Part shown: one piece after another, positions 11,726 to 61,058 of the stretch
How positions within the stretch are numbered: position 1 is the stretch's first letter
How the letters are laid out: each line of letters begins with the position of its first letter
From: Bolinopsis microptera
Lineage: Eukaryota > Ctenophora > Tentaculata > Lobata > Bolinopsidae
Reading direction: 5' to 3'
NCBI RefSeq assembly: GCF_026151205.1
Contig: NC_087077.1
Span: 19,196,975 to 19,260,974 of the forward strand
Length of the DNA stretch: 64,000 bases
Program-made: the position numbers and the translations under genes
Notes under the pieces: generated by a model
Told to the model about the DNA's origin: nothing
Databases searched by the model: none
Seen by the model: only the letters and a program-made list of their open reading frames with translations

Positions 11726-13476
11726 TCAAGGCTATCCATAAATTATAAAATAACAAATCAAATGAAATGTATTATCCACCAAGAAAGGAGTATGAAGTGA
11801 ACAGACAGTAGGCCTTGTTTGAATTTTTGGGCTGATAGAAATATCGGAAAATAGAGTTGATAAATTTGTCTAAATTTCTAGTTTGCTTTTATTATAATGT
11901 CTTTGTAATTGATAACATGAATTCGTCGGGGAAAGTAATTTTGAATATTTAATAATAAATGATAGTAACGTCACGTGATCCGAATCGGGCATGAGCTCAA
12001 CCCGGCCACCATACTCACCCCTTTATCAACATCTTAATACCCGATGTTTTTTCTATCCGGGTGGCCTTTTTCCGCACAAACTTTAATGCATTTTTTTTGA
12101 AGTTGCTTAAATTGGCTTCATTATTAAGATGACAGGATAATACTGGCTATTTCCAAAGACCGCTCAGTCTTTTTGAATGTATTCTTTTTGAGAATATGCA
12201 GTAAAAACCGCTGATTCAGCATTATCATGCTAGATGTTCGAGATTTTAATTTAGTGTCCCCCAAACCTTCACATAGTCTTTAGTATTTAAAATTTAATGT
12301 CGAGATGCCCGCAAATGTATTACTTGTAAAATATTTTAGTGCAAATTGCGGACTTTTCATTTATATTCCAAAGAGGTGATTAAGATTTGTTTTCCTTCGT
12401 ACCAAATCAAATACACGAATATAACATCTGAACAAAAAAGTAACTATAAATCCAACAAATTATTTCATTCATAAACATTTGGTTAGGGATCGTTCAAATA
12501 CAACATGAGCCGGGAGGGGGTCTCTAAACGATTGCGCAAGTGAAATTTATGTGTAAAACTGATTGCGGAGGAGAGGGATTCAAAATCGGCCAAAAAAGCG
12601 ATCTTGTGTGATATGTGAGCGATCCCTTAATGGTAATACTGGTAAATATTCATAGCTACGCAACAGTTAACTATTGTCACATGGAACAGAAACTACGGGT
12701 AAATCAAAACAAATCCCTGAAACTCATGATCATTAAATTTGGGTTTTGCAGTCCCGGGATGGGGGTGACCCAGCTCAACAACTCCCCCCTTCCCCCTTTC
12801 AAGGACTTTAAAGTCTTTGCAATCTGTCTTGATACATCATCTAGTGTCAGTTTCCCAAATTATGAGTTGGAAATGATCTCGAACCCGTCTGAGTCACTGG
12901 CTGCATCTTCTGTGTTTACCTCGTCATATTCAGCTGAAAGGGATGAGTTCAATATTAGTATTACAAAGCCAGCGCCGTATCGTTAAAGAGGGTAAATGGT
13001 AACACTGAAAGTTTCACCCTCCGACCATTATCAGCAACAGGTGAAGGTTGGTGATTCAAGCCAGTGGCGTAACGTTGCCTGTTGACCCCCACCCACTGAT
13101 TAAAGGCCGAAAAACGCGCGAATAATCTGACGCAAACAGTAAAGCGCGCAGTAAACTCCTGAAATGCGCGTCTTTGCGCAATTTTCAATTTAATTTCATC
13201 ACTAACCAATACAAGCGGGTAACGCTTATACTGATTATCACTGGGACCGCCTTACGAAACACTGCCTGTAAAGGGACCCGTGACACGGTCCAAACGTAAA
13301 TAGTTCATAGTTACCAGTGTAGTTTTCGAGGAGTTTGTCGATTGGGGTCCTCCGGGGCGGGGTCATGTAGGAGGGGCGAGTTGCAACCATTTCAAACAGT
13401 GCGCCACTTCCCGCCGCTATTGTCTGCGTGGATTTAATGTTGTTATTCGGGGAAAATCCTGGTGTTATAATGCAAT
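11726..13476. other. Intergenic region between convergent PDAP1 and ATG4
   Basis: No supported gene. An open frame at 12615-12986 lacks splice or family support. A lone CAGTGGCGTAACG end at about 13060 matches the hAT-type MITE at 13767, but its partner end was not found. The rest is AT-rich unique sequence and probable 3' UTR. Confidence 0.5.
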
Positions 13477-16400
13477 TTAGGCCCGCGCCCAAGAAGTAAA
13501 GTTGACTTTTATTGTTGCAAAATCCAAACAGTGGTTCGTCCGTGGATGAGGTTCAAAGTTTTCAATCAACTGAACGTGCAGACAATTTTCAAGAAAAATA
13601 ACAACAACCTCCTGGAGTTGCTGGCAAAGGTCGTCGAACGATTCCTCAGTTTTGCAGTAGAAGGCCACAGCAATACTTGGGTCTAGCTGGTCCCACGGTA
13701 ACAAGTCAACTTTAGTCGTGTGGTAGGTCTCATCCGGTATACTGTAGGAGATAATGGGGTTGAAGACAGTGGCGTAACGACCGCCCCCGCTACCCCTGCT
13801 AGCAGGGGGGTGGCACCTTAGGGGGGCGACATTTTCCTGGATTGTAGGTCTGATTTCACGGAAAAAGCGCCGTATTGGTGTACTGCCCTGTCGAATTTTC
13901 CGGCTCCGGGTAGGGGCGGCAAATTTCAATCAGCAGGGGGGCGGCACAAAGTAACGTTACACCACTGGTTGAAGAGGCAAACAAACTCGTGTTAAATGAC
14001 ATGACGGTAATAACGGTATGGTGAAATCGGGCAAGATCAGAATTCCCGAAATCATCAAAGAATCTAGAGCTATTAGGAAATCTAATTAATTTTGGCTTTC
14101 ACTCTTACTTCTCAAGGTCGATGTCGTCAGGGCTAAGAGATTCTTGTGTGACATGTGGGTCAAGATAGAGTAATTTGTCGTTCTGACATCCTATGAAATA
14201 AAATGCCGAGTTTGGTCGCCCTCCCACTGCTCCAACACTTTGCTCAATCTCAAAACAGTGCTGAAGTGTTTTGTGAGTAAGAAAATCAAATGTGATGTGC
14301 TTACAGATAACAAACCAATGTTGGATCACATCAAATGTATGTCATACCCTAAACATATCAAAATCGTATTGGGTATGATTCCAAATGTACACTAACCTTA
14401 ATGTTCTCAATGTAGAGATTATTACATTCGCTTAGCCCTAATCTGAGAGGTATAACCAGTAAGAGAGGCGTCCAGTTCACTTCCTTACAGTAGAACTCTG
14501 AAAAGTTTTAATATTAAGATGAGAGGTATAACCAGTAAGAGAGGCGTCCAGTTCACTTCCTTACAGTAGAACTCTGAAAAGTTTTAATATTAAGATGAGA
14601 GGTATAACCAGTAAGAGAGGCGTCCAGTTCACTTCCTTACAGTAGAACTCTGAAAAGTTTTAATATTAAGATGAGAGGTATAACCAGTAAGAGAGGCGTC
14701 CAGTTCACTTCCTTACAGTAGAACTCTGAAAAGTTTCAATATTAAGATGAGAGGTATAACCAGCAAGAGAGGCGTCCAGTTCACATCCTTACAGTAGAAC
14801 TCTGAAAAGTTTTAATATTAAGATGAGAGGTATAACCAGCAAGAGAGGCGTCCAGTTCACTTCCTTACAGTAGAACTCTGAAAAGTTTTAATATTAAGAT
14901 GAGAGATATAACCAGCAAGAGAGGCGTCCAGTTCACTTCCTTACAGTAGAACTCTGAAAAGTTTTAATATTAAGATGAGAGGTATAACCAGTAAGAGAGG
15001 CGTCCAGTTCACTTCCTTACAGTAGAACTCTGAAAAGTTTTAATATTAAGATGAGAGGTATAACCAGCAAGAGAGGCGTCCAGTTCACATCCTTACAGTA
15101 GAACTCTGAAAAGTTTTAATATTAAGATGAGAGGTATAACCAGCAAGAGAGGCGTCCAGTTCACTTCCTTACAGTAGAACTCTGAAAAGTTTTAATATTA
15201 AGATGAGAGGTATAACCAGCAAGAGAGGCGTCCAGTTCACTTCCTTACAGTAGAACTCTGAAAAGTTTTAATATTAAGATGAGAGGTATAACCAGCAAGA
15301 GAGGCGTCCAGTTCACTTCCTTACAGTAGAACTCTGAAAAGTTTTAATATTAAGATGAGAGGTATAACCAGCAAGAGAGGCGTCCAGTTCACTTCCTTAC
15401 AGTAGAACTCTGAAAAGTTTTAATATTAAGATGAGAGGTATAACCAGTAAGAGAGGCGTCCAGTTCACTTCCTTACAGTAGAACTCTGAAAAGTTTTAAT
15501 ATTAAGATGAGAGGTATAACCAGCAAGAGAGGCGTCCAGTTCACTTCCTTACAGTAGAACTCTGAAAAGTTTTAATATTAAGATGAGAGGTATAACCAGC
15601 AAGAGAGGCGTCCAGTTCACTTCCTTACAGTAGAACTCTGAAAAGTTTTAATATTAAGATGAGAGGTATAACCAGCAAGAGAGGCGTCCAGTTCACTTCC
15701 TTACAGTAGAACTCTGAAAAGTTTTAATATTAAGATGAGAGGTATAACCAGTAAGAGAGGCGTCCAGTTCACTTCCTTACAGTAGAACTCTGAAAAGTTT
15801 TAATATTAAGATGAGAGGTATAACCAGCAAGAGAGGCGTCCAGTTCACTTCCTTACAGTAGAACTCTGAAAAGTTTTAATATTAAGATGAGAGGTATAAC
15901 CAGCAAGAGAGGCGTCCAGTTCACTTCCTTACAGTAGAACTCTGAAAAGTTGCAATATTAAGATGAGAGGTATAACCAGTAAGAGAGGCGTCCAGTTCAC
16001 TTCCTTACAGTAGAACTCTGAAAAGTTTTAATATTAAGATGAGAGGTATGACCAACAAGAGAGGCGTCCAGTTCACTTCCTTACAGTAGAACTCTGAAAA
16101 GTTTTAATATTAAGATGAGATATAGCTCTTAAAAGCAATTGATTAAACACTTGATGCAAAAACGCATGGTAAATGGATGGGCCCAGTAAAAAGAAGTTTA
16201 GGCATAAAGCTGGTATTTTGGGGTAATAAAATAAGGGACTCCTCAGCCTCCTGAACATGTGCTCACTATTAATGTAAACAAAAAATTATCACCTCCCCGC
16301 CAGTATCCACATCAATAGGGGAACAGTAAATAAAGGTTTGATTTTATCAACACAGCGATTATCAATAGGGGAACAGCAAATAAAGATTTGATTTTATCAA

Positions 16401-18092
16401 CACAGCGATCCCTAGTTACTTTACTTTCTATCACAGTGATTATCAATGAACATTTCATCAAAACTCACTTATATCTTCAATGCACATGAAATTGTCCATG
16501 ACGACTTGGACAGTAAGATTAAGTTCCTTGTGGAACTCTGTGAGTATCCGTATAGATTGGGCAGCAGTGTTAGGTCCGAACCACGTGCCAACATCCTTTC
16601 CAGCGGAACAGCCTGCCTTCGCTGAAAATATGTGAAGTATTTGTAATATTTGTAATATTCACACAACTGAACACAGCTACAGGGGGTGGGGGTGAATTTC
16701 AAGGTATTCAGATAATCGGAGCAGCTGATGTGGATTAGATCATAAATGTTTTGTTAAAATAGTGGTGATGACAGTGTTATATATCGTTCCTTACTCCTCG
16801 TTTATCGGGAGCAGTCCATTAGGTTTTAGACCTTGTTTAATACAGGTTCCTTTAGCTCTAGTCGCCCTATCCTTTGACCAGGGAGCGCCCCGTATAGGCC
16901 AGTCAAGCCGGTTGCCGTGTGATAGCCGCCGTTTCGTTTTTACACCAAGTGTTATATATGACAGAGAATGACTCTGATCAAGTTTACAATTCTTGTAATG
17001 TTGTTGACAGGAATATACTTTGTATAATGTATACTTTTATACAATATTGTATTATATAATATATATTACAGTGGAACGTGACACGTCATTTAAATCAAAC
17101 AACAACGACGCCAAATACAGTCACAACATTCTGTTAAAAATAGAAAATGATAGCAAACAGTCAACACGTTCATATAAGCATTAACAAGTCAAATACAAAT
17201 AACAAATACAAATACAAATAACAAATACAAATACAAATAACAAACCTATCTGCTGTATGGAGTAAAGTCCGTTAGGATCATCCAGGAAGTCTCTGAGAAT
17301 GCTGTTATAAGTACTACATTTAGTCCACCTCCAGTCCCGGCTGAAGTTGTGTCTGATGAGGGTATGGGAGTACAACATCTGGATACACCGCAACATGCAG
17401 CCCCACCCTCTGTCTGATGTGTATGCGGTACCACCTGGGGTTGGGAAGTTGTTGGGGACCATGTCTGGAAATGATACGGAATATTGCGGGAAATATTGCC
17501 GACCAAGAATGAGGTCTTGGAAAGTAAAAGCCTCAAACATCAGGAACTGGACAGTTAATCCAGAATCATAAATGTACCCGAAAATTATTTATAAAACAGA
17601 ATTTTGTGAAACAAAAAATCAGACAGTTCAGGTGATATTGTAGCTTCCTTGAAAAAAAAACATATAATACGATACACACACACGTCACACTATGGAGGTA
17701 TGAAGATTACTGACCAATAGCTCTGAAGTTTCTCCTGTAAGAGAACCAGAGGAAACTCTCGACATCCCTCTCGAATATGGCTCGGTCATCTGGTAGCACA
17801 TAACTTCTACCCAGTACCTGCAAACATCATAATTAGTTAATTAATACGTTATAGTTTATCATTATCACTCGACACGCTTTTAGTTACATAAATCAAGTGC
17901 TACATTAATTAAAGACACTAACGTAACGATAAATGATCCCGCCAAGAAATATCCGACAAAACGAACCTGGATCACATCTCCATGAAGCAGCTGAGTTTTC
18001 TCCTCTAAGTTACCGAATACGGGGGTGTAGTCGGTTATGGTATTGTTGATCGTGTTGTTTAGTGTTGTTAACGTTGCTTCTAGGTCGCTCAT
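13477..18092 (-). CDS. ATG4: ATG4 cysteine protease (autophagy)
   Basis: Seven exons on the minus strand: 18092-17967, 17817-17715, 17464-17246, 16621-16469, 14497-14397, 14260-14109 and 13741-13477. Every junction agrees in phase and the sum is 1,119 bases, or 372 residues. ATG4 cleaves the C-terminus of Atg8/LC3 proteins and later removes them from lipid. The catalytic Cys lies in SDRGWGCMLRC (exon 3). WFGPN is in exon 4, PLLLVIPLRLGLSE in exon 5, and GGRPNSAFYFIG and the Asp-His pair of LDPH in exon 6. LDPSIAVAFYCKTEESF is in exon 7. The length fits the family. The intron before exon 5 is mostly a satellite made from exon 5 itself; a hAT-type MITE lies in intron 6. A possible extra first exon lies at 19034-19138. 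Confidence 0.93.
13767..13967. mobile_element. hAT-type MITE with 8-bp target duplication
   Basis: 201 bases bounded by CAGTGGCGTAACG and its imperfect inverse (CGTTACACCACTG). The 8-base sequence GTTGAAGA is repeated exactly at 13759-13766 and 13968-13975, as expected for hAT insertion. It lies in ATG4 intron 6, with its edge about 25 bases from the acceptor of the last exon. Confidence 0.9.
14445..16116. repeat. 76-bp satellite, 22 units, built from ATG4 exon 5 and its 3' splice site
   Basis: Unit starts fall every 76 bases from 14445 to 16041 (21 x 76 = 1,596). Read on the ATG4 strand, each unit is 23 bases of intron ending in AAAACTTTTCAG plus the first 53 bases of exon 5 (coding for FYCKEVNWTPLLLVIPL). 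Only the unit nearest the downstream side (14445-14497) continues into the rest of the exon and its donor. Units differ by a few substitutions (AGTAAG/AGCAAG, CACTTC/CACATC, one TTGCAAT). Confidence 0.95.
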
Positions 18093-18101
18093 TCTCACAT
18101 T

Positions 18102-18658
18102 CTGAAATAACAGACTTGATACAACGTAAACAGACAAAAGGCAGATTGTTAATATGAAAAATCAGCAGCTATAACTAAACGTTGCGGAAGCAATCACAGT
18201 TATTGGTTTTAAAATAGATTAATCGTTAATTCAAATCCAATCCAAACGTATCCGAATAATCCGAACATGTGAAGTGACTTGAGATAAAATGTTACACATT
18301 ACATCATCCAGTAAAATTTAGCATCAAGGAACTCTTAAAAACGAGGCCAGGGTAGGGTAACAGACACAAAATAACAACTGGTATATTGGAGAACAGGACA
18401 GCTAGTGCAAGGAGGAGGATTGGGACTGCGATGGAGCAACACGACCGGCTAATTAGGTTTTAGAAATCCAGTCGGATTCGATATTTGAAACTCGAACCAC
18501 ATGTAATTAAAATCTAGACCATACAATCGTAAATTTCCTGTAATCTCATGTATTGTTGGTGGGTCTGTTAATTGAATGCAGATAACAGTACGCACTGCAT
18601 ACTTATAAAGATCATATCACTGTCAATAACAGCTTTATATGCACCTTCCAGCTGAAGT
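18102..18658. other. ATG4 5' flank or intron
   Basis: A clean acceptor (TTATTTCAG) lies nine coding-frame bases before the ATG4 start at 18092, so a leader exon or trans-splicing is likely. No other coding signal was seen. Confidence 0.4.
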
Positions 18659-19030
18659 AAACCACAGAGTAAAGTACAGAGTAAACCACAGACTAAACCA
18701 CAGACTAGACCACATACTAAACCACAGACTAAACCACAGACTAAACCACAGACTAAACCACAGACTAGACCACATACTAAACCACAGACTAAACCACAGA
18801 CTAGACCACATACTAAACCACAGACTAAACCACAGACTAAACCACAGACTAAACCACAGACTAAACCACAGACTAAACCACAGACTAATCTACAGACTAA
18901 TCTACAGACTAAACCACAGACTAAACCACAGATTAAACCACAGACTAAACCACAGACTAAACCACAGACTAAACCACAGACTAAACCACAGACTTAACCA
19001 CAGACTAAACCACAGACTAAACCACAGACT
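18659..19030. repeat. 12-bp minisatellite (ACCACAGACTAA)
   Basis: About 30 tandem copies of a 12-base unit with variants (GACTAGACC, ACATACTAA, ATCTACAGACTA). It is open in several frames only because 12 is a multiple of 3. If the exon at 19034-19138 belongs to ATG4, this lies just after its donor. Confidence 0.9.
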
Positions 19031-19033
19031 TAC

Positions 19034-19138
19034 CCTTCTAAGGTACTCTGCAGTGCAAACAGTGATAACAGCAAGAGAAGCTACGCCGATAGGATAGCTG
19101 TACTCTATCCACACGTCACTCCAGGTAACCTTCGTCAT
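19034..19138 (-). CDS. Possible coding exon with one TM segment (extra first exon of ATG4 or separate small gene)
   Basis: An ATG at 19138 opens a 35-codon frame (MTKVTWSDVWIEY, then hydrophobic PIGVASLAVITVC) ending at AGAAGG followed by a strong donor GTAAGT. It ends in phase 0, and the acceptor at 18102 opens ATG4 exon 1 in phase 0 (NVR before Met), so the two join in frame. That would give ATG4 an N-terminal membrane segment, unusual for this soluble family. The alternative is a small unrelated membrane-protein gene whose next exon I could not place. Confidence 0.35.
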
Positions 19139-28725: not shown

Positions 28726-31700
28726 TCACAACGTGACACAAGAATCTGAGTCTACATTTTCCTTTTCAACATTTTCTACGCTTGCAGGATCCACTGCATT
28801 CTTTACTTCATGGAGTTCTGTGTTTGAGGTTTGAGATACGACTTGCTTCGTTACGAATGACTCAGCGTTTTTAATTTGAGGTACGACCTGCACTATTTCA
28901 TCAGCATGTTCCACCTCTTTCGAATCGTAAAGCTCAGTGTTTGAGGAGGGAAGTTGGACTAGTTTAGTTTCAGGAGTTTCTGTTTCTGTTTCTGTTTCAG
29001 GAGTTTCTGTTTCTGTTTCTGTTTCTGTTGTTCCTGTTTCTGATCCCATTTCCTCAAGACTGAATTGATTCTGAACTGATGGAGGGTCCGATAACATGGC
29101 TAGTGGCTGCTCGTGGGAAGATGACAATGTTGTCTGCTCTGGGTCAATGTTTTGAGGGTTTTCTGTTAAATCAGCTGACAGCTGGATGACTGAGCTGACT
29201 TCAATTTCAACCTTTTCCGTAACACTATCACATTCTTTCAATTCTTCGCTTGGCTTTTCTGGGACCACAGGGATGTCTAAGGCAACTATATCATAATGAT
29301 CGTTATCTTTAGCAGCTATTTTAGAATGGTCGGGGATATCGGCAGGAATGATTTGAATTGTAGATTCAGCTTGAATAGTTGGAATGGTAGATTCGGCTTG
29401 AATAGTTGGAATGGTAGATTCAGCTTGAATAGTTGGAATGGTAGATTCAGCTTGAATAATTGGATTCGTAGATTCAGCTTGAATAGTTGGAATGGTAGGT
29501 TCAGCTTGAATTGTTGGATTCGTAGATTCAGCTTGAATAGTTGGAATGGTAGATTCAGCTTGAATAGTTGGAATGGTAGGTTCAGCTTGAATTGTTGGAT
29601 TCGTAGATTCAGCTTGAATAGTCGGAATGGTAGATTCGGCTTGAATAGTTGGATTCGTAGATTCGGCTTGAATAGTTGGATTCGTAGATTCAGCTTGAAT
29701 AGTCGGAATGGTAGATTCAGCTTGAATAATTGAAATCATAGATTCAGTAGAATCTGATTTTTCGATCACTGAACTAACTATCGGTACTTCAAGCCCCATC
29801 TCTACCTTATTCGAGACAGCTTCATCATTTTTCGATCCCTCGACTGTTTCTTCTGTAGAAGCAAAGAACAACCTAGGTTTGTCTTTGTTATCAGCTGTAT
29901 TGCTCGTCTCAGTTGCTTTATCTGGCTCACAAACAAGGCTTTCTGTCACTTTGTTCTTGACTTGGGGTGAGAAAAACGGCATCTGGCGGGGAGGGTTAGC
30001 GGTCTGAAAAGGTGTTTCAGCGGTCTGAAGAGGTGTTTTAGCGGTCTGAAGAGGTGTTTTAGCGGTCTGAATTTTTCTGGGGGACTGTTTCCTAGGAGTT
30101 GCACCCTGTTTTGAAGGTGACGTTTTCTTCCTTTTGGTGTTTGGAGTTGTAGCCTCCTGAAATATTGTAAGTAATTTCGAGACTATAAATTATTTAGGTA
30201 CGGGTAAATGCCTCACAGAATGGCTAGCCTCACAGAATGGCCAAATTTGTAAATGTTTTTGTAACTAATTTTTTATAAAAGACTGGTAGGTTTTGTGGAT
30301 ACCATATGAAACAAAAGTCTTCTGGCAACACTTCCTGTGGTGAAATCATTAACTAGGACCACATTTTCTGGCATAAATATGAATGTTTATGTAGAAATTT
30401 TGAGCACTGAAAAATTTGTTTTCAAATTTTTGAACTAAGTTTACATTTTGGTGAGAACTTCTGGCACCAGTATGACAGAAGATGTTCAAAGAATAGTATT
30501 CATCAAACAAAACGAACATTGTTCAATATAGGAAGAAAAAAATGCTAAAATGGCTACACGCCTCACAAAATGGTCAAAATATGCCTCACAAAATTTGTTT
30601 TCAAATTTTTGAACTAAGTTTGCATTTTGGTGAGAACTTCTGGCACCAGTATGACAGAAGATGTTTAAAGAATAGTATTCATCAAACAAAACGAACATTG
30701 TTCAATTTAGGAAGAAACAAAATGTTAAAATGGCTAAACGCCTCACAAAATGGCCAAAATATGCCTCACAAAATGGCCAAAATTTAAAACTCCTTTTATT
30801 CAATGAAACCATAAGTCTAAAGTATTCACAAGCTATTTATCATACAATAACACCCCAGATGGACTCCATCTGGGGTGTTATTGTATGATAAATAGCTTGT
30901 GAATACTTTAGACTTATGGTTTCATTGAATAAAAGGAGTTTTAAATTTTGGCCATTTTGTGAGGCATATTTTGGCCATTTTGTGAGGCGTTTAGCCATTT
31001 TAACATTTTGTTTCTTCCTAAATTGAACAATGTTCGTTTTGTTTGATGAATACTATTCTTTAAACATCTTCTGTCATACTGGTGCCAGAAGTTCTCACCA
31101 AAATGCAAACTTAGTTCAAAAATTTGAAAACAAATTTTGTGAGGCATATTTTGACCTTCATTCGGCTGTAAAAACACTCCATCTGATGGAGTGTTTTTAC
31201 AGCCGAATGAAGGTTATAAATCATGAAATCAGGGAATATGAACAACGCCACACAAAATGGCCATTTTTGGTGTAGGAAATTATGCCCTTTTTATTCAGTT
31301 CTAAGAAATTTCACCTATATGGGGGTGTTAACAAGGCATATTAATACCAGCAGCATGCCTGAAACAAGAGCCAAAGGTTTTAGAAAAATAAAATTTTCTC
31401 GTTTTCTTTTTTTTTTTGCCATTTTGTCAGGCATTTTTTCTTTTTTGTGAAATAATTTTTCACAGCTCAGTTTTTTCGTGAGTTTTAGGTTATTACCCCA
31501 TTCCTTAATAGGTTTTCTAAGAACGTGTGGTGATAGAAATTTAAAAAGTATCTCCATCAACAAAATTATAGAAATTAAGATTTGGCCATTCTGTGAGGCA
31601 TGTTTTTTTGGAGGAAGATTTTCCGGCCAATTTTTCTCAAAGAAAAAATGGTTATGAGATTAAATGAACCCCCGGGAAGAAAAATATGAGTGTCAACTTA

Positions 31701-40448: not shown

Positions 40449-41036
40449 TGAAGAGGTCCAAAACCAATTCAAGCATGACACAAAGTTGAATACATTTTCA
40501 TCGGAAGCTGCAAGCTTATTAACGTTTGATTCCGTACGTTCATGATCCGTTATTATGCATTCACCTTCAGGCGGTGTCGACGAATCATGCGAAAAGGGTT
40601 TTTGACAGGCTGTGCCCTTACCATAATTAAACTGAACCATTGCCTGATACGATGTAAACAAGAGTGTTGGATACTGAGTGTATGAAGATTAGAAAGTTTC
40701 TCAAGGAACCTTCCCCAACCCCGGGGATGGGAGTACCTTTAGATCATGAAGGCTAAGTGACCAATCAGTTACCACTTAACTTCCGCCTTCTTAAGTTAAG
40801 AATCTATGCTCAAATCCAAGTGTCACCTAGTCAAGGGGGTAAGCTAAGGTTTTCAATAGATTTTTGCAGCATAACTCATCAAGAAAACAGCAATCGAAAT
40901 CTTTCGATTAACCCAGCCGAATGATAAGGAAAAATAAGGAAAAATAAGGGAACAGTGTAATCAATGTAAAAAAACTAGAAATAATAAAGTTAGATAAAGT
41001 GTTAAATGAACAATAGTAGAATTATTTGCTCAGATC

Positions 41037-41126
41037 ATGTCTAATTCAGTATCTGACCCCATATACCTGGAAGAAACTAATGAAGACGAGATTATCGAGG
41101 TGATCAGAGATTTTCAAATTGGCAAG
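41037..41126 (+). CDS. Putative first coding exon, copy 1, unidentified
   Basis: An ATG opens 30 codons (MSNSVSDPIYLEETNEDEII, then EVIRDFQIGK) ending exactly at a consensus donor AAG|GTGAGT in phase 0. The acidic, helix-rich start looks like a real protein N-terminus. A MITE begins 12 bases into the intron. Following exons were not identified with confidence; coding-like text near 42090-42170 and 42321-42563 could be remnants. Confidence 0.45.
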
Positions 41127-41138
41127 GTGAGTGACATA

Positions 41139-41945
41139 CCTTAGTTCCCAAAAATTTGTGTGCCATTATATTGAGCACAATTTATTGGAGCCCGAAAAAT
41201 TTGGGCAGAAAATTTGAACTCATTTGGGCGACCGAAAATTTGGGCACAAATTCTTCGAAAAATGAACGATTTTCCATTAAAATTTCAGTTAGATATTTGC
41301 CTTAGTTCATTATTATTCCTTGTTATTCCAGTCATTTTGCTTTCAATTTTAAGCATGTAGGTGGTAGTCTGAGTTGTTTCACATTATGAAAACATAGTGT
41401 GTCAGCTCAATAGAGGAGTTTGATCAGACAATGTGAAAATTGATACCCGCTTGACAGTGATCCGTGAAGTACACGCTCGTTGGATCAACGAACTTTTTGT
41501 ATATTTAAAAGGAAGGCCAGATGACATAAAGGAAAGGCTTTGAGAAGTCGGGTATAACTGATGCTTGTAGATCAGACTTTACGGTGGATGATAATCCATT
41601 TGCAGATCTTGTTTAAATCTCTAGCTATCCGTACCTCTAGCCATTTGTTTTATTAGTAGATGTTAGCTATTCCAGTTATTTCTATTCATTTAAAATATAA
41701 GCCTTTTTACTTGGTCAAGCCATGAATGACAGATTAAAAAACTAAAATTTCAAATATTATTTCACTTGGATATGAAGAAAAAGCCATCTTTCTATAGATT
41801 TCAGGGCCACATGCCAAATGCCAAAAGTTTGGTTAGCAAAAAATTTAGCAGACGGAAAAGATTTATGCAATTAATTTGGTCTGCAAAAAATTTGGGCGAG
41901 AGGCCCGCTCAAATTTTTTGTCGCCCAAATTTTTGGGAATTAAGG
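41139..41945. mobile_element. TA-flanked MITE, full copy 1
   Basis: CCTTAGTTCCCAAAAATTTG end, inverse end and TA flanks as in the PDAP1 copy, but 807 bases. It carries an extra 324-base middle, absent from the PDAP1 copy. Confidence 0.85.
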
Positions 41946-42236
41946 TACCTGCAATGGTAGTTTAAAAGTCGGTAAAGCTAATTTGTAATTGCTTGGTTAG
42001 GCTTTACAGCAAATGTATACAAAGTGGTACATTCCCACGTAAAGTTATTCCTATTTAATAAAAGAAAAACATTTTTCGAGAAGGTCATTTACAAACGCTT
42101 TTATAATTTCTTCACTTCTAAAGGTGTACTGAAAGTCGAACATCGAAAGACTCACAGTTTGGATCAGATTTAGAAAAGGCCATTCTACCACCTAGATGCT
42201 TTACACAAATCTATAAACTCCGTTATTGACTGACAC

Positions 42237-44296
42237 TGTCAACCCATCGAGATCAATGATACAAGCAATGTCATAATCCTCCCAAGAAAAACCAACACTT
42301 TTCTTTATATAGCCTCCAAATTGTGGAATAGCATACATAAACGGATTCTAAATGAGAATGGGGAAATCCTCACTACTTCTGTATCTTTGGTTAAATTACG
42401 CTGTAAAAGTATCATCCTGGGATCTCAATCCATCAACAATAATAACACCTGGACTTACCAAAACTTTCACATCGCCCCTCACTCAATCACAGACCAAACC
42501 ATCTCATCACTCACTCACCAAATTGCCGACCCAATATCTATTGAAGTGGCGAAAATTTTCTAGACAAATGATATTTCGATATTATTGCTGCAGCAGATAC
42601 AAATACCAACATTATTATATTCCCAAACGTTTGAACCTTTAAATTAACTAGGAAAGTCAACCCTCAACTTGACTTTTACTGTTTTGAACAGATATGATGA
42701 TATTAACTTAATTTATTATTATTATTTTTTTTTTACATACTCCTTCTTAGTGTGGTGACTTGGGGTCCATAAATATAACAATACAAGCTGATAAACCAAA
42801 AAGAACAACTGGGGTAGGTAGGTAGCCCTGGTGGGTGCGTAAACTTTACGGTCTGCTCTCTCCAAGATCAGCCTGCTTCTCCATTTTACCGTGTGTTTTA
42901 CCGTGAAGCCTAATTTCTAGTTTTTATAAAATATACAATGCAAGTGCAGGTTTACTAATCTTAATCTACTTAACAACTCAATAGCCCAAGTCACCATACC
43001 CGTAGTATATTCCATGGTAATAGAAGAGCTTTAAAGTTTTTCAAATTGTTGCTATAATTGATTTAAATAAAAATTTGTTGTTTTCTTGAATTTGTTGTTT
43101 TCTTGATTCGACACCAACCAATAATGATAGTTCGTGCTGTGCGTCGAAGCGGCGAAGTCCTGCAAACTCTGTTACAAGAAAGTCTCTAGCTACAAGCTAG
43201 CAATAAACATGTTTTAGGGATATTAATCATTGACTTGAGCAACGTTTTCGACATCCTTGTACCATGTCGTGACCCCATTGTAATTTCACTTAGTGTATTG
43301 AGGCAAAAGCCATCGGAGCGAATAAAGCCACGATACATATTACGCCCACTTGTGCGCGGCGGGATTACAAAGTGAGGCAACGTCCAACGACGCTATTAAT
43401 TACAATATTCTGATCTCTTAAGCAAATTAAACGTTTACGGTATAAATAGTAAAAGGTTTTGTGAGCATTTTCTGCTCGATCATAAAATCGATCGAAAAAA
43501 CTGATTTTGTTTCGCTAAATTCCCCTAAATTCAACCACTTACCATAATAAAAATACTAACAACCAAATAAAGTTTTTTAAATAATTATATACAATCACCA
43601 AAGAATATTTACTTAAGTTTACTTTTAGCTAACTAATTCGTGGTTTAAGCTCCTATTTTATTTATGATTAAAGGAATGTAAAATCAAAAATAAAACTTTT
43701 CAATTTCGTTTCATTGAAAACTTTTCGTTTCATTGATTAAAAATGATTTTGGAATGCAAAATGGTTGAATTGAGTTTCCTCGGGTGAAATTGCAAAAACC
43801 GATTTTTGGGCTAAAAATAGTCCAAAAAACCCTATTTTTATATTTTTGAACAAATTAACTTTGTCGGCACATTATAAAAATTTGCTTAAAGAAAGTTAAA
43901 ACATATCCTCACAATATGGTATAAAAATAACACAAATTTTTTAATTTTCTTTGGGTAAAAATCCAAAAAAGTGGTCAAAATTTTAACTTTTTTGCGCGCA
44001 CTCAATTTTCGGTTCTTAGATACTATATTTATATTTTGACCCTTTTTTAAAATGTATATTGTAACAAATAATTTAAATGTATTAAACATAATTTAGTCAA
44101 AAACCTAATTTTAAATGGAAGCAAAATTTTAAGTGCGCACCGCGCATAAAAAACCATCCTACAGTCGGCACGCGCGGCTCACTGTCGATGGCGCACTACC
44201 TACTTATATTTTTATATTGAAGGACTTCGCCGCTTCGACGCGAACTAGCATTCTTGCTTCGCATCGAAGCAACGATCTCGATGGGTTGACATCGTC
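42237..44296. other. Inverted-repeat pairs inside the duplicated unit
   Basis: TGTCAACCCATCGAGATC near 42239 is matched inversely by GATCTCGATGGGTTGACA near 44276. CGTCGAAGCGGCGAAGTCCT near 43144 is matched inversely by AGGACTTCGCCGCTTCGACG near 44221. Both pairs bracket overlapping spans, suggesting nested foldback or TIR elements. No transposase was recognised. Copies at +5,584. Confidence 0.5.
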
Positions 44297-46620
44297 AATC
44301 AATGCTCCTCCGGCAGGCTATTATATTTATGCCCATAATCATATGAATAGAGACTAGGCGGAATGACAGGCTGAGCGCGACCCAGTAAGTTTTGACTTGC
44401 TGAATTTTATCACTCGGTAAACCTGTGTAACAGTCGTCAAGCACCAAAAACTGGTTGCTATGCCCGTAATTAATTATTAAATCAACACATAACTGGTGTC
44501 GCGCGCGCAAAATATACTCCTTTTATACACATAATTATATGTGTCATCACCGAAGAACCGTCGGGCCACCTCATATATCCAATTCCAAACCTGATTACTT
44601 ATTCCCTACGGTCCTTCCACCGAAGAACCGTCGGGCCACCTCATATATCCAATTCCAAACCTGATTACTTATTCCCTACGGTCCTTTTGCCTTCGGCGAG
44701 AGTAAGGAAAAAAAAATCCCGTTGTACTTTTTTGATCCCAGATATCGTGTCATGTACTAATACTATTAAATCATATATGTATATTATGATGTCAGCCAAC
44801 ATTGAACATTGGTTAAAATGTTAGTCATTAGTGACATGGAGGGGTCTGAATTCTAAAATAGCTCAAATTTGGCACTTACGTGTTATGAGATCTGTGATCA
44901 ATGCCACGTTAGAAATGAAAAACATATTTTTTTGAAGCTAATTTTCAATGAAGTAGCCTCATTATCAAATCAATGTCACAGTTATGGGACTGATCTTTAA
45001 AAACAAAACATTCTGTAAAAATATTAATAACAAATACATTTCATAGTGCAGCACTCGTGTACGCTCCAAGAAATCGTAAACTAAATAATGAAACTTTGCC
45101 AACATTTATCAATATCAGCATTGATTATATCTTAACAGACTTGCGATGCTAGAAAGAGCTAAATCAGATTCATCATCATAGAAAGGACTCAATAATAAAT
45201 CGTAATATGGAAACCAGTGATCGATCGAACTTAAGATTAGGGTTGCAAATCTTGAAAAGCTATTTTCTGCTCAACTTTCTTGGATGAATTTTTCGGAAAC
45301 ATTTTTTTTCGGTAGACAGCTTGCATAGTGAAGTCGTTAGCATTGGAACTAATTCAAAACACACAACGTCTAATGTTAAACATATGAACATTTTCTGGGT
45401 GACATTCCTAACAGAGCAAATTTTTAGGATTCTTCCGAAATGATGAGCGGTTTCATCGCCCTCAGCGCTCCTAAAATCCTATCCCAGTCGACAACAGAAG
45501 TATAAGTTCGCTAAATTCCCCTAAATTCAACCACTTACCATAATAAAAATACTAACAACCAAATAAAGTTTTTTAAATAATTATATACAATCACCAAAGA
45601 ATATTTACTTAAGTTTACTTTTAGCTAACTAATTCGTGGTTTAAGCTCCTATTTTATTTATGATTAAAGGAATGTAAAATCAAAAATAAAACTTTTCAAT
45701 TTCGTTTCATTGAAAACTTTTCGTTTCATTGATTAAAAATGATTTTGGAATGCAAAATGGTTGAATTGAGTTTCCTCGGGTGAAATTGCAAAAACCGATT
45801 TTTGGGCTAAAAATAGTCCAAAAAACCCTATTTTTATATTTTTGAACAAATTAACTTTGTCGGCACATTATAAAAATTTGCTTAAAGAAAGTTAAAACAT
45901 ATCCTCACAATATGGTATAAAAATAACACAAATTTTTTAATTTTCTTTGGGTAAAAATCCAAAAAAGTGGTCAAAATTTTAACTTTTTTGCGCGCACTCA
46001 ATTTTCGGTTCTTAGATACTATATTTATATTTTGAAGAGGTCCAAAACCAATTCAAGCATGACACAAAGTTGAATACATTTTCATCGGAAGCTGCAAGCT
46101 TATTAACGTTTGATTCCGTACGTTCATGATCCGTTATTATGCATTCACCTTCAGGCGGTGTCGACGAATCATGCGAAAAGGGTTTTTGACAGGCTGTGCC
46201 CTTACCATAATTAAACTGAACCATTGCCTGATACGATGTAAACAAGAGTGTTGGATACTGAGTGTATGAAGATTAGAAAGTTTCTCAAGGAACCTTCCCC
46301 AACCCCGGGGATGGGAGTACCTTTAGATCATGAAGGCTAAGTGACCAATCAGTTACCACTTAACTTCCGCCTTCTTAAGTTAAGAATCTATGCTCAAATC
46401 CAAGTGTCACCTAGTCAAGGGGGTAAGCTAAGGTTTTCAATAGATTTTTGCAGCATAACTCATCAAGAAAACAGCAATCGAAATCTTTCGATTAACCCAG
46501 CCGAATGATAAGGAAAAATAAGGAAAAATAAGGGAACAGTGTAATCAATGTAAAAAAACTAGAAATAATAAAGTTAGATAAAGTGTTAAATGAACAATAG
46601 TAGAATTATTTGCTCAGATC

Positions 46621-46710
46621 ATGTCTAATTCAGTATCTGACCCCATATACCTGGAAGAAACTAATGAAGACGAGATTATCGAGGTGATCAGAGATTTTCA
46701 AATTGGCAAG
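46621..46710 (+). CDS. Putative first coding exon, copy 2
   Basis: Identical to the exon at 41037-41126, shifted by 5,584 bases, with the same donor and the same MITE after it. Confidence 0.45.
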
Positions 46711-46722
46711 GTGAGTGACATA

Positions 46723-47529
46723 CCTTAGTTCCCAAAAATTTGTGTGCCATTATATTGAGCACAATTTATTGGAGCCCGAAAAATTTGGGCAGAAAATTTG
46801 AACTCATTTGGGCGACCGAAAATTTGGGCACAAATTCTTCGAAAAATGAACGATTTTCCATTAAAATTTCAGTTAGATATTTGCCTTAGTTCATTATTAT
46901 TCCTTGTTATTCCAGTCATTTTGCTTTCAATTTTAAGCATGTAGGTGGTAGTCTGAGTTGTTTCACATTATGAAAACATAGTGTGTCAGCTCAATAGAGG
47001 AGTTTGATCAGACAATGTGAAAATTGATACCCGCTTGACAGTGATCCGTGAAGTACACGCTCGTTGGATCAACGAACTTTTTGTATATTTAAAAGGAAGG
47101 CCAGATGACATAAAGGAAAGGCTTTGAGAAGTCGGGTATAACTGATGCTTGTAGATCAGACTTTACGGTGGATGATAATCCATTTGCAGATCTTGTTTAA
47201 ATCTCTAGCTATCCGTACCTCTAGCCATTTGTTTTATTAGTAGATGTTAGCTATTCCAGTTATTTCTATTCATTTAAAATATAAGCCTTTTTACTTGGTC
47301 AAGCCATGAATGACAGATTAAAAAACTAAAATTTCAAATATTATTTCACTTGGATATGAAGAAAAAGCCATCTTTCTATAGATTTCAGGGCCACATGCCA
47401 AATGCCAAAAGTTTGGTTAGCAAAAAATTTAGCAGACGGAAAAGATTTATGCAATTAATTTGGTCTGCAAAAAATTTGGGCGAGAGGCCCGCTCAAATTT
47501 TTTGTCGCCCAAATTTTTGGGAATTAAGG
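46723..47529. mobile_element. TA-flanked MITE, full copy 2 (duplicated with the segment)
   Basis: Same as the copy at 41139; its flanks are also duplicated, so it moved by segmental duplication and not by transposition. Confidence 0.85.
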
Positions 47530-50500
47530 TACCTGCAATGGTAGTTTAAAAGTCGGTAAAGCTAATTTGTAATTGCTTGGTTAGGCTTTACAGCAAATGT
47601 ATACAAAGTGGTACATTCCCACGTAAAGTTATTCCTATTTAATAAAAGAAAAACATTTTTCGAGAAGGTCATTTACAAACGCTTTTATAATTTCTTCACT
47701 TCTAAAGGTGTACTGAAAGTCGAACATCGAAAGACTCACAGTTTGGATCAGATTTAGAAAAGGCCATTCTACCACCTAGATGCTTTACACAAATCTATAA
47801 ACTCCGTTATTGACTGACACTGTCAACCCATCGAGATCAATGATACAAGCAATGTCATAATCCTCCCAAGAAAAACCAACACTTTTCTTTATATAGCCTC
47901 CAAATTGTGGAATAGCATACATAAACGGATTCTAAATGAGAATGGGGAAATCCTCACTACTTCTGTATCTTTGGTTAAATTACGCTGTAAAAGTATCATC
48001 CTGGGATCTCAATCCATCAACAATAATAACACCTGGACTTACCAAAACTTTCACATCGCCCCTCACTCAATCACAGACCAAACCATCTCATCACTCACTC
48101 ACCAAATTGCCGACCCAATATCTATTGAAGTGGCGAAAATTTTCTAGACAAATGATATTTCGATATTATTGCTGCAGCAGATACAAATACCAACATTATT
48201 ATATTCCCAAACGTTTGAACCTTTAAATTAACTAGGAAAGTCAACCCTCAACTTGACTTTTACTGTTTTGAACAGATATGATGATATTAACTTAATTTAT
48301 TATTATTATTTTTTTTTTACATACTCCTTCTTAGTGTGGTGACTTGGGGTCCATAAATATAACAATACAAGCTGATAAACCAAAAAGAACAACTGGGGTA
48401 GGTAGGTAGCCCTGGTGGGTGCGTAAACTTTACGGTCTGCTCTCTCCAAGATCAGCCTGCTTCTCCATTTTACCGTGTGTTTTACCGTGAAGCCTAATTT
48501 CTAGTTTTTATAAAATATACAATGCAAGTGCAGGTTTACTAATCTTAATCTACTTAACAACTCAATAGCCCAAGTCACCATACCCGTAGTATATTCCATG
48601 GTAATAGAAGAGCTTTAAAGTTTTTCAAATTGTTGCTATAATTGATTTAAATAAAAATTTGTTGTTTTCTTGAATTTGTTGTTTTCTTGATTCGACACCA
48701 ACCAATAATGATAGTTCGTGCTGTGCGTCGAAGCGGCGAAGTCCTGCAAACTCTGTTACAAGAAAGTCTCTAGCTACAAGCTAGCAATAAACATGTTTTA
48801 GGGATATTAATCATTGACTTGAGCAACGTTTTCGACATCCTTGTACCATGTCGTGACCCCATTGTAATTTCACTTAGTGTATTGAGGCAAAAGCCATCGG
48901 AGCGAATAAAGCCACGATACATATTACGCCCACTTGTGCGCGGCGGGATTACAAAGTGAGGCAACGTCCAACGACGCTATTAATTACAATATTCTGATCT
49001 CTTAAGCAAATTAAACGTTTACGGTATAAATAGTAAAAGGTTTTGTGAGCATTTTCTGCTCGATCATAAAATCGATCGAAAAAACTGATTTTGTTTCGCT
49101 AAATTCCCCTAAATTCAACCACTTACCATAATAAAAATACTAACAACCAAATAAAGTTTTTTAAATAATTATATACAATCACCAAAGAATATTTACTTAA
49201 GTTTACTTTTAGCTAACTAATTCGTGGTTTAAGCTCCTATTTTATTTATGATTAAAGGAATGTAAAATCAAAAATAAAACTTTTCAATTTCGTTTCATTG
49301 AAAACTTTTCGTTTCATTGATTAAAAATGATTTTGGAATGCAAAATGGTTGAATTGAGTTTCCTCGGGTGAAATTGCAAAAACCGATTTTTGGGCTAAAA
49401 ATAGTCCAAAAAACCCTATTTTTATATTTTTGAACAAATTAACTTTGTCGGCACATTATAAAAATTTGCTTAAAGAAAGTTAAAACATATCCTCACAATA
49501 TGGTATAAAAATAACACAAATTTTTTAATTTTCTTTGGGTAAAAATCCAAAAAAGTGGTCAAAATTTTAACTTTTTTGCGCGCACTCAATTTTCGGTTCT
49601 TAGATACTATATTTATATTTTGACCCTTTTTTAAAATGTATATTGTAACAAATAATTTAAATGTATTAAACATAATTTAGTCAAAAACCTAATTTTAAAT
49701 GGAAGCAAAATTTTAAGTGCGCACCGCGCATAAAAAACCATCCTACAGTCGGCACGCGCGGCTCACTGTCGATGGCGCACTACCTACTTATATTTTTATA
49801 TTGAAGGACTTCGCCGCTTCGACGCGAACTAGCATTCTTGCTTCGCATCGAAGCAACGATCTCGATGGGTTGACATCGTCAATCAATGCTCCTCCGGCAG
49901 GCTATTATATTTATGCCCATAATCATATGAATAGAGACTAGGCGGAATGACAGGCTGAGCGCGACCCAGTAAGTTTTGACTTGCTGAATTTTATCACTCG
50001 GTAAACCTGTGTAACAGTCGTCAAGCACCAAAAACTGGTTGCTATGCCCGTAATTAATTATTAAATCAACACATAACTGGTGTCGCGCGCGCAAAATATA
50101 CTCCTTTTATACACATAATTATATGTGTCATCACCGAAGAACCGTCGGGCCACCTCATATATCCAATTCCAAACCTGATTACTTATTCCCTACGGTCCTT
50201 CCACCGAAGAACCGTCGGGCCACCTCATATATCCAATTCCAAACCTGATTACTTATTCCCTACGGTCCTTTTGCCTTCGGCGAGAGTAAGGAAAAAAAAA
50301 TCCCGTTGTACTTTTTTGATCCCAGATATCGTGTCATGTACTAATACTATTAAATCATATATGTATATTATGATGTCAGCCAACATTGAACATTGGTTAA
50401 AATGTTAGTCATTAGTGACATGGAGGGGTCTGAATTCTAAAATAGCTCAAATTTGGCACTTACGTGTTATGAGATCTGTGATCAATGCCACGTTAGAAAT

Positions 50501-51930
50501 GAAAAACATATTTTTTTGAAGCTAATTTTCAATGAAGTAGCCTCATTATCAAATCAATGTCACAGTTATGGGACTGATCTTTAAAAACAAAACATTCTGT
50601 AAAAATATTAATAACAAATACATTTCATAGTGCAGCACTCGTGTACGCTCCAAGAAATCGTAAACTAAATAATGAAACTTTGCCAACATTTATCAATATC
50701 AGCATTGATTATATCTTAACAGACTTGCGATGCTAGAAAGAGCTAAATCAGATTCATCATCATAGAAAGGACTCAATAATAAATCGTAATATGGAAACCA
50801 GTGATCGATCGAACTTAAGATTAGGGTTGCAAATCTTGAAAAGCTATTTTCTGCTCAACTTTCTTGGATGAATTTTTCGGAAACATTTTTTTTCGGTAGA
50901 CAGCTTGCATAGTGAAGTCGTTAGCATTGGAACTAATTCAAAACACACAACGTCTAATGTTAAACATATGAACATTTTCTGGGTGACATTCCTAACAGAG
51001 CAAATTTTTAGGATTCTTCCGAAATGATGAGCGGTTTCATCGCCCTCAGCGCTCCTAAAATCCTATCCCAGTCGACAACAGAAGTATAAGTTCGCTAAAT
51101 TCCCCTAAATTCAACCACTTACCATAATAAAAATACTAACAACCAAATAAAGTTTTTTAAATAATTATATACAATCACCAAAGAATATTTACTTAAGTTT
51201 ACTTTTAGCTAACTAATTCGTGGTTTAAGCTCCTATTTTATTTATGATTAAAGGAATGTAAAATCAAAAATAAAACTTTTCAATTTCGTTTCATTGAAAA
51301 CTTTTCGTTTCATTGATTAAAAATGATTTTGGAATGCAAAATGGTTGAATTGAGTTTCCTCGGGTGAAATTGCAAAAACCGATTTTTGGGCTAAAAATAG
51401 TCCAAAAAACCCTATTTTTATATTTTTGAACAAATTAACTTTGTCGGCACATTATAAAAATTTGCTTAAAGAAAGTTAAAACATATCCTCACAATATGGT
51501 ATAAAAATAACACAAATTTTTTAATTTTCTTTGGGTAAAAATCCAAAAAAGTGGTCAAAATTTTAACTTTTTTGCGCGCACTCAATTTTCGGTTCTTAGA
51601 TACTATATTTATATTTTGACCCTTTTTTAAAATGTATATTGTAACAAATAATTTAAATGTATTAAACATAATTTAGTCAAAAACCTAATTTTAAATGGAA
51701 GCAAAATTTTAAGTGCGCACCGCGCATAAAAAACCATCCTACAGTCGGCACGCGCGGCTCACTGTCGATGGCGCACTACCTACTTATATTTTTATATTGA
51801 AGGACTTCGCCGCTTCGACGCGAACTAGCATTCTTGCTTCGCATCGAAGCAACGATCTCGATGGGTTGACATCGTCAATCAATGCTCCTCCGGCAGGCTA
51901 TTATATTTATGCCCATAATCATATGAATAG

Positions 51931-52417
51931 ATCTGGTGGATTCGTGTAGTGTTTTTGAGTCTCATGATTTGATAGTTCTTTTATTCAAATTTCTGATTGT
52001 TTCTGAATAGACTCAGTGATGACAGATTCTAATGGAAATAAATAGCTGAATAACGTATCGACATTTCTACGTCATACTCATATTCTCAAATTATTTGTTA
52101 TATAGTAGTGTTGAAAGTATTAAAACTTTCAACTTTTAATACTTTCAACACTACTATATAACAAATAATTTGAGAATATGAGTATGACGTAGAAATGTCG
52201 ATACGTTATTCAGCTATTTATTTCCATTAGAATCTGTAGTGTTGAAAGTATTAAAACTTTCAAACTTTTAATACTTTCAACACTACTATATAACAAATAA
52301 TTTGAGAATATGAGTATGACGTAGAAATGTCGATACGTTATTCAGCTATTTATTTCCATTAGAATCTGTCATCACTGAGTCTATTCAGAAACAATCAGAA
52401 ATTTGAATAAAAGAACT
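51931..52417. mobile_element. Foldback insertion with 13-bp target duplication
   Basis: 487 bases present only in the third C copy. The target ATCATATGAATAG is found once at the matching sites in copies 1 and 2 and on both sides here (51918-51930 and 52418-52430). Most of the insert is two inverted arms around TTTTAATACTTTCAACACTA, one arm segment being repeated. A fragment of the same arm lies at 59157-59195. Confidence 0.85.
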
Positions 52418-60976: not shown

Positions 60977-61058
60977 TTCTTTTGTGCTGTCTTCTGAACC
61001 TTGTTAAGCTAATGATATGCAGTTGTAGTCTGGCAAGTATACTCACCTGTAAAACACC

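Follow-up and report, generated by a model that had tools for sequence, protein, structure and literature searches.

Minisatellites whose repeat unit spans an exon-intron border are known as mirages, and those of amphioxus Adh3 were reportedly described by Canestro et al. in 2002. In the mirage of the amphioxus globin gene BflGb6, each tandem unit joins the 3' end of an intron to the 5' part of the exon that follows, many of the units keep their splice signals, and reverse-transcription PCR suggests that splicing is normal (PMC3087553). Here we describe an array of this kind in an autophagy gene, the ATG4B-like gene of the lobate comb jelly Bolinopsis microptera. It lies in a stretch of 64,000 nucleotides (nt) of NC_087077.1 (positions 19,196,975 to 19,260,974), which we call the window and whose own numbering we use unless another sequence is named. 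We propose that the array is a near-neutral mirage minisatellite that is tolerated through exon-proximal splice choice, and we put the probability of this reading at roughly 75%.

The array is like BflGb6 in what is repeated, but not in its dimensions. BflGb6 has units of 150-160 bp, with 6 and 3 copies in two haplotypes and 81-100% identity (PMC3087553), whereas the ATG4B array has 22 copies of a 76-bp unit with ~98% identity, in a comb-jelly ATG4 gene. The Adh3 mirages are also border-spanning minisatellites and are described as not generating aberrant mRNAs, but their units are 10-72 bp, and length and somatic instability is reported for them (as cited in PMC3087553 and PMC3902484). Lancelet troponin C is named as a further mirage, and lancelet PGBD5 is another case of border duplication, but its repeats are imperfect and the 108-bp one is a triplication (PMC3902484). 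Human genes in segmental duplications also have internal tandem repeats at exon-intron boundaries, with 27 intron modifications (PMC2812944). Those minisatellites have units of ~30 bp and 4 repeats on average, and in recent paralogues they go along with new introns or alternative splicing; in contrast, the ATG4B array lengthens an existing intron, and its gene is outside a segmental-duplication family. Similarly, intron gain from tandem duplication of a proto-splice site copies splice signals within a gene, but it creates a new intron in coding sequence (PMC2891723), while the ATG4B protein is unchanged. So border-spanning mirages are known; what is new is the phylum (as far as we searched), the copy number, the uniformity, and the presence of further cases in the same genome. 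No mirage from a comb jelly was among the open-licence papers that we looked through.

Splice choice among equal sites is usually studied on pairs of sites. ATG4B offers 22 evenly spaced and near-identical acceptors, and a helicase gene of the same animal offers 17 copies of a donor. Both are from a lineage that has been proposed to be the sister of all other animals (title of PMC10232365).

The array and its host gene

The array consists of 22 head-to-tail units of 76 bp on the minus strand (14445-16116), with a mean pairwise difference of 1.6%. Tandem Repeats Finder, run on the window, gives 14444-16120, period 76, 22.1 copies, 98% matches, and 0% indels. Each unit contains 23 nt of intron end (ATCTTAATATTAAAACTTTTCAG with small variants, terminating in TTTTCAG) and 53 nt from the start of an ATG4 exon (starting with AGTTCTACTGTAAGG). 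CAG/AGTTCTACTGTAAGG, where the slash marks the splice border, occurs 22 times at a spacing of exactly 76 bp. This makes 21 extra units with a decoy acceptor (14521-16116, minus strand; first exon bases 16093, 16017, and so on to 14573) ahead of the real acceptor, whose first exon base is 14497. Only unit 22 leads on to the half of the exon that is not repeated, and then to a donor (GTTAGT). The exon is 101 nt long (14397-14497, minus strand), and its first 53 nt are those of unit 22.

A preliminary description, which a model had made from the letters of the window, already held this anatomy: the 76-base unit and its two parts, the 21 decoys, the single complete exon at the end of the array, and the identity of the gene as ATG4. 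It placed the array at exon 5. The units do match the border of this exon, but in our ten-exon model the exon is the sixth and the intron is the fifth. It also spoke of a satellite, which is right in that the array is tandem, but minisatellite fits better. The host intron (14498-16468, minus strand) has 1971 nt, with 375 nt up to the first decoy, and it follows exon 5 (16469-16621, minus strand), which ends in GATATAA/GTGAGT.

The units are very uniform. Just 7 of the 76 columns vary, with 1.19 differences per pair of units on average (22 units), and outside these 7 columns a decoy cannot be told from the real site between -23 and +53. Unit 1, at the edge, has two private changes, and rare changes are also found in the inner units 3, 16, and 19; units 14 and 18 encode D instead of E. 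TTTTCAG/AG is invariant across the 22 units. The array has two defining features of a mirage: the unit spans the exon-intron border (22/22) and the splice-site dinucleotides are kept (TTTTCAG in 22/22). The donor-like CTGTAAGG, which the preliminary description had noted as a possible weak donor in each unit, is also present in 22 of 22.

The ten-exon splice model (coding span 12860-19138, minus strand) yields a protein of 417 amino acids (aa) that is identical to P0001, "cysteine protease ATG4B-like [Bolinopsis microptera]". P0001 corresponds to splicing at the last acceptor. The introns are, in order, 932, 149, 280, 624, 1971, 136, 367, 185, and 381 nt, with the array in the fifth. Proteins P0002-P0004, which are relatives from short intron-free contigs, show normal joining of these exons. 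For the protein and structure searches, the query was a preliminary model of 329 aa that had ten surplus residues at one border; it matches the solved ATG4B structure 2d1i_A ("Cysteine protease APG4B", E = 2.7e-77). We rejected the idea that this is a pseudogene: all ten exons are open and the product equals the database protein P0001.

Choice among near-identical acceptors

Locally, the 22 acceptors hardly differ, so the choice among them must come from context. Most likely, pairing would occur across the exon, between the last acceptor and the donor 101 nt downstream of it. The intron upstream of this exon is over 250 nt even if it is measured to the first decoy (375 nt), and the downstream intron has 136 nt. 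For near-equal sites in human genes, the favoured partner is the nearest across the intron if introns are short and the nearest across the exon if they are long, and the class with a long upstream and a short downstream intron acts as exon-defined for acceptors (PMC9225289). With at least 375 nt upstream and 136 nt downstream, the human rule predicts that the real, exon-proximal acceptor is used. Mirages in amphioxus are also reported not to disturb splicing (PMC3087553, PMC3902484). The preliminary description had offered, as one of two options, that the array is tolerated since exon definition needs the downstream donor. This fits and is the best supported option, and the amphioxus case is a published precedent (PMC3087553). 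Compared to unicellular relatives, exon skipping is reported to be more frequent in Mnemiopsis, also a comb jelly, and less so in sponges and Trichoplax (PMC6142364). By analogy, this would be compatible with exon definition in Bolinopsis, but it is no proof.

If splicing leaked to the other 21 acceptors, it would give frame-shifted mRNAs that share a stop and would be expected to be degraded. We spliced the gene in silico to each decoy, which gives exons of 177 to 1697 nt with an early stop at the same codon in all of them. The product has 219 aa from an internal Met. Its tail is ILILKLFRVLL for 20 of the 21 decoys, as the preliminary description had it for all of them, and ILILQLFRVLL for the other one. 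The stop codon is 88 to 1608 nt upstream of the next junction. An early stop well ahead of a junction is expected to lead to mRNA decay, so we expect decay here. The LDPH segment, which we take to be catalytic in ATG4, is encoded by the following exon and would be absent from each product of decoy or microexon splicing. No decoy-spliced protein is among the 120 matches listed (of 1057), where clustering at 90% could hide one. If decoy products are degraded and the real acceptor is chosen across the exon, then the array would be close to neutral and hence would persist.

The other option in the preliminary description was that the array tunes the splicing of ATG4. The decoys would compete with the real site, so that the length of the array sets the fraction of ATG4B mRNA that is productive, and the rest decays. 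Such a rheostat could explain why all 21 decoys share one stop, upstream of the exon that encodes LDPH, and why the acceptor core is unbroken in 22 of 22 units. It might also matter that there is just one other ATG4 match in the genome, on C9, if a probably falsely duplicated stretch (see below) is set aside, and that it is of another subtype. Minisatellites at human exon-intron boundaries can alter splicing (PMC2812944). However, the chance that none of the 7 variable columns (of 76) hits the 9 core columns is ~0.4 by hand arithmetic, so intact cores are expected anyway, and the variable columns are too few to judge whether there is selection on the decoys. The amphioxus mirages are reported to be silent (PMC3087553), and RNA folding of the last 480 nt (array plus exon) was no better than for shuffled sequences (z = +1.46). 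We found no support for tuning and consider it unlikely. The folding result also led us to reject a hidden RNA structure that masks the decoys.

The units might instead be a step towards a new intron or exon, with their acceptor and the weak donor CTGTAAGG being recruited. GTAAGG lies 9 nt beyond TTTTCAG in every unit, which gives a 67-nt GT..AG stretch per unit, and models of this type have been published for the amphioxus globin mirages (PMC3087553) and for the human boundary repeats (PMC2812944). We think that this is quite improbable. When one, two, or three of the 9-nt microexons (TTTTCAG to GTAAGG) are included in silico, each of the three cases stops at once; 76 is not divisible by three; and the gene model requires no additional intron. 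We also considered recursive or zero-length splice sites, in which the acceptor is followed directly by a good donor (AG/GT). We rejected these, as GTAAGG sits 9 nt past the acceptor and is preceded by CT.

Several points weigh against exon-proximal choice in a silent array. The pattern is partly forced, since only the exon-proximal choice yields a working protein. Decoys 19-21 would give exons of 177-329 nt, which are permitted under exon definition. In the C9 ATG4 gene (described below), the outer donor of a 45-bp pair would add 15 residues in frame, and an acceptor pair has an upstream intron of ~175 nt, where the human rules favour the decoy. Among human near-equal acceptors with long introns on both sides, the upstream preference is reduced (PMC9225289), and the human rules may not apply to a comb jelly. 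The splicing of some human genes is altered by minisatellites at their exon-intron boundaries (PMC2812944), which argues against taking the array as silent, and in C. elegans a minisatellite shows enrichment close to multiple splicing decisions (PMC4039745).

The use of each acceptor could be revealed by the Iso-Seq cDNA that was made for B. microptera (PMC10232365). Short reads would hardly assign a junction, as the 53 nt past it are nearly alike whichever of the 22 acceptors is used, and repeats are a known source of error for spliced aligners (PMC10632439).

Copy number, origin, and age of the array

The assembly was built with PacBio CLR reads, wtdbg, TGS-GapCloser, Purge Haplotigs, and pilon (PMC10232365). 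With such noisy long reads, the array could be a false expansion, and the assembly does contain a duplicated stretch at this locus. A DNA search of the animal's own genome found one further copy of the array (C6:19102256-19103955), which is 89% identical. It belongs to a 30-kb stretch (C6:19085576-19115712) that repeats 19194734-19224791, which is the window up to 27817 plus 2.2 kb that precedes it. Up to about position 11,200 of the window, the second stretch is allele-like: 1.4% of the bases are substituted, at a transition/transversion ratio of 1.16. Beyond this point (~16 kb in all), there are 4.0% substitutions with a ratio of 0.24 and 49 indel events per kb. Most of these indels are of a single base (673 of 799), and coding exons are not spared. 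This error-rich part looks like uncorrected long reads. Given these raw-read statistics and a pipeline with PacBio CLR reads and gap closing, a retained duplicate that was closed with raw reads would fit, and C6:19085576-19115712 is probably a false duplication in the assembly.

This raw-read-like copy nevertheless retains the array. We aligned it unit by unit: its 22 units stay in register, and one carries a 16-base insertion. At the common A/G site, 21 of the 22 units agree, and the remaining one reads T. All eight private variants (in units 1, 3, 14, 16, 18, and 19) are in place. The 7 variable columns make 154 cells; 133 are the same in the two copies, and the rest are read errors or gaps. 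Both assembled traces thus have 22 units, where the second trace could be of the same or of the other haplotype. The copy number has a second trace and an assembly error is unlikely; we give very little weight to a false expansion. A collapsed or false array, which the preliminary description had named among the findings that would refute it, was not seen.

The same five bases, TCTCA, are found in the intron just before unit 1 (16116-16120, minus strand; the upstream breakpoint of the founding duplication) and in the exon where unit 22 ends (14444-14448). A shared TCTCA at both founding breakpoints would fit a microhomology-mediated duplication. Probably, this 5-bp match primed a small tandem duplication in which 23 nt of intron end and 53 nt of exon start were copied, and the copies would then have expanded to 22 via slippage or unequal exchange. 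A relative gives some indication of age. P0003 (from a JGI contig of 1305 bp) has 97% identity over 70% of the query, and it has KFFCKEDEVNW where the window has KFYCKEVNW, or two extra residues. Every one of the 22 units lacks the six bases for these residues, which places the growth of the array, or its homogenisation, later than this difference.

Other arrays at splice sites in this genome

The ATG4B-like gene has two more arrays near splice sites, both on the minus strand and without exon sequence: 31 copies of a 12-bp unit from +4 of the gene's first donor (18658-19030), and a short CAAATA-type array from +2 of the fourth exon's donor (17182-17244).

The ATG4 gene on C9 (locus L022) has three border-spanning repeats, two on the donor side and one on the acceptor side. 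One donor is present as a 45-bp pair (L022:6720-6810), a second donor has seven copies of TTACGTTCTGAG/GTGAG (L022:7503-7802), and an acceptor is repeated as a 37-bp pair (L022:8104-8187). The true borders AYVLR/V and CM/VFKGDI agree with P0121, and the border residues NNAVQ agree, less firmly, with P0122 and P0137. Its nearest named relatives are mostly ATG4D-like, with some tick proteins named 4b, so on similarity we call it a C/D-like ATG4. This gene (C9:16614000-16617500) may be missing from the annotation: none of its 23 matches at E = 1e-60 is a Bolinopsis-named protein, where many matches are nameless. The locus also has 35 copies of the 9-bp GTGTGTACT (L022:8290-8604), which start at the donor of the exon that is homologous to the array's exon in ATG4B.

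The fifth border-spanning array is in a DEAD-box gene on C1, which has 17 copies of ATCATTGTCGCTACCCCT/GTAAG with periods of 29 and 43 bp (L040:1010-1546, or C1:14022140-14022676). We take one copy as the real donor and 16 as decoys; the array precedes the domain segment that starts with GRLIDF. In four of the five arrays, including that of ATG4B, the decoys break the frame or lead to a stop, so the protein needs the copy that adjoins the exon body. The 45-bp donor pair on C9 is ambiguous, as the inner copy is indicated only by relatives that lack the 15 residues.

To gauge the frequency of such arrays, we sampled DEAD-box and TCP-1 genes, which were chosen regardless of arrays. Loci were given for 30 of the 52 DEAD matches, and two of these have an array near the edge of a domain segment, one being the DEAD-box case above. 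Introns were counted in 14 genes with at least two domain segments (31 introns in all). Seven of the 31 introns contained or adjoined an array; the only border-spanning one was the DEAD-box case. If the second ATG4 gene is included, then 2 of 15 genes outside of the ATG4B-like gene have border-spanning arrays. One of the TCP-1 genes, on C13, has an intronic array of 61 copies of a 30-bp unit (L055:2849-4676) that ends ~20 nt before an acceptor; its consensus unit has no AG dinucleotide.

Three of the four arrays in ATG4B, and four of the five in the second ATG4 gene, lie within 5 bp of a splice site. Minisatellites might be actively seeded at splice sites, for example via R-loops or transcription-coupled breaks, but random placement gives nearly as many at this distance. 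The number is not beyond chance for the four arrays of ATG4B (P = 0.28), nor for these without the border-spanning array (2 of 3 versus 0.92 expected, P = 0.22), nor for the second gene (4 of 5 versus 3.03 expected, P = 0.33). With no slack, P is 0.66 or more for the ATG4 genes. Just one of the 31 sampled introns has a border-spanning array, and we consider active seeding highly improbable. What we see is a genome that is rich in minisatellites, some of which straddle borders, and not a targeting mechanism.

A broader claim would be that border arrays recur in this genome, at acceptors as well as at donors, and that among up to 22 locally near-identical sites the spliceosome reliably uses the one closest to the exon. 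This is tentative, and we hold it at somewhat less than even odds. If it is true, these arrays are natural rulers of splice-site competition: decoy use that fades with distance from the exon would point to exon definition, and a peak at the first decoy would point to intron definition.

The window has a few other features of note. From ~40924 to 52100, tandem repeats recur at a fixed distance of 5,584 bp, which suggests that a segment of this length is duplicated in tandem, whether really or in the assembly. Repeats of 27 bp (29355-29747) and 21 bp (29996-30071) lie inside an open reading frame on the minus strand (28729-30189) and are perhaps a coding minisatellite. The plus strand has a long open frame at 61053-63998 that encodes endonuclease and reverse transcriptase domains and resembles a long interspersed element (LINE).
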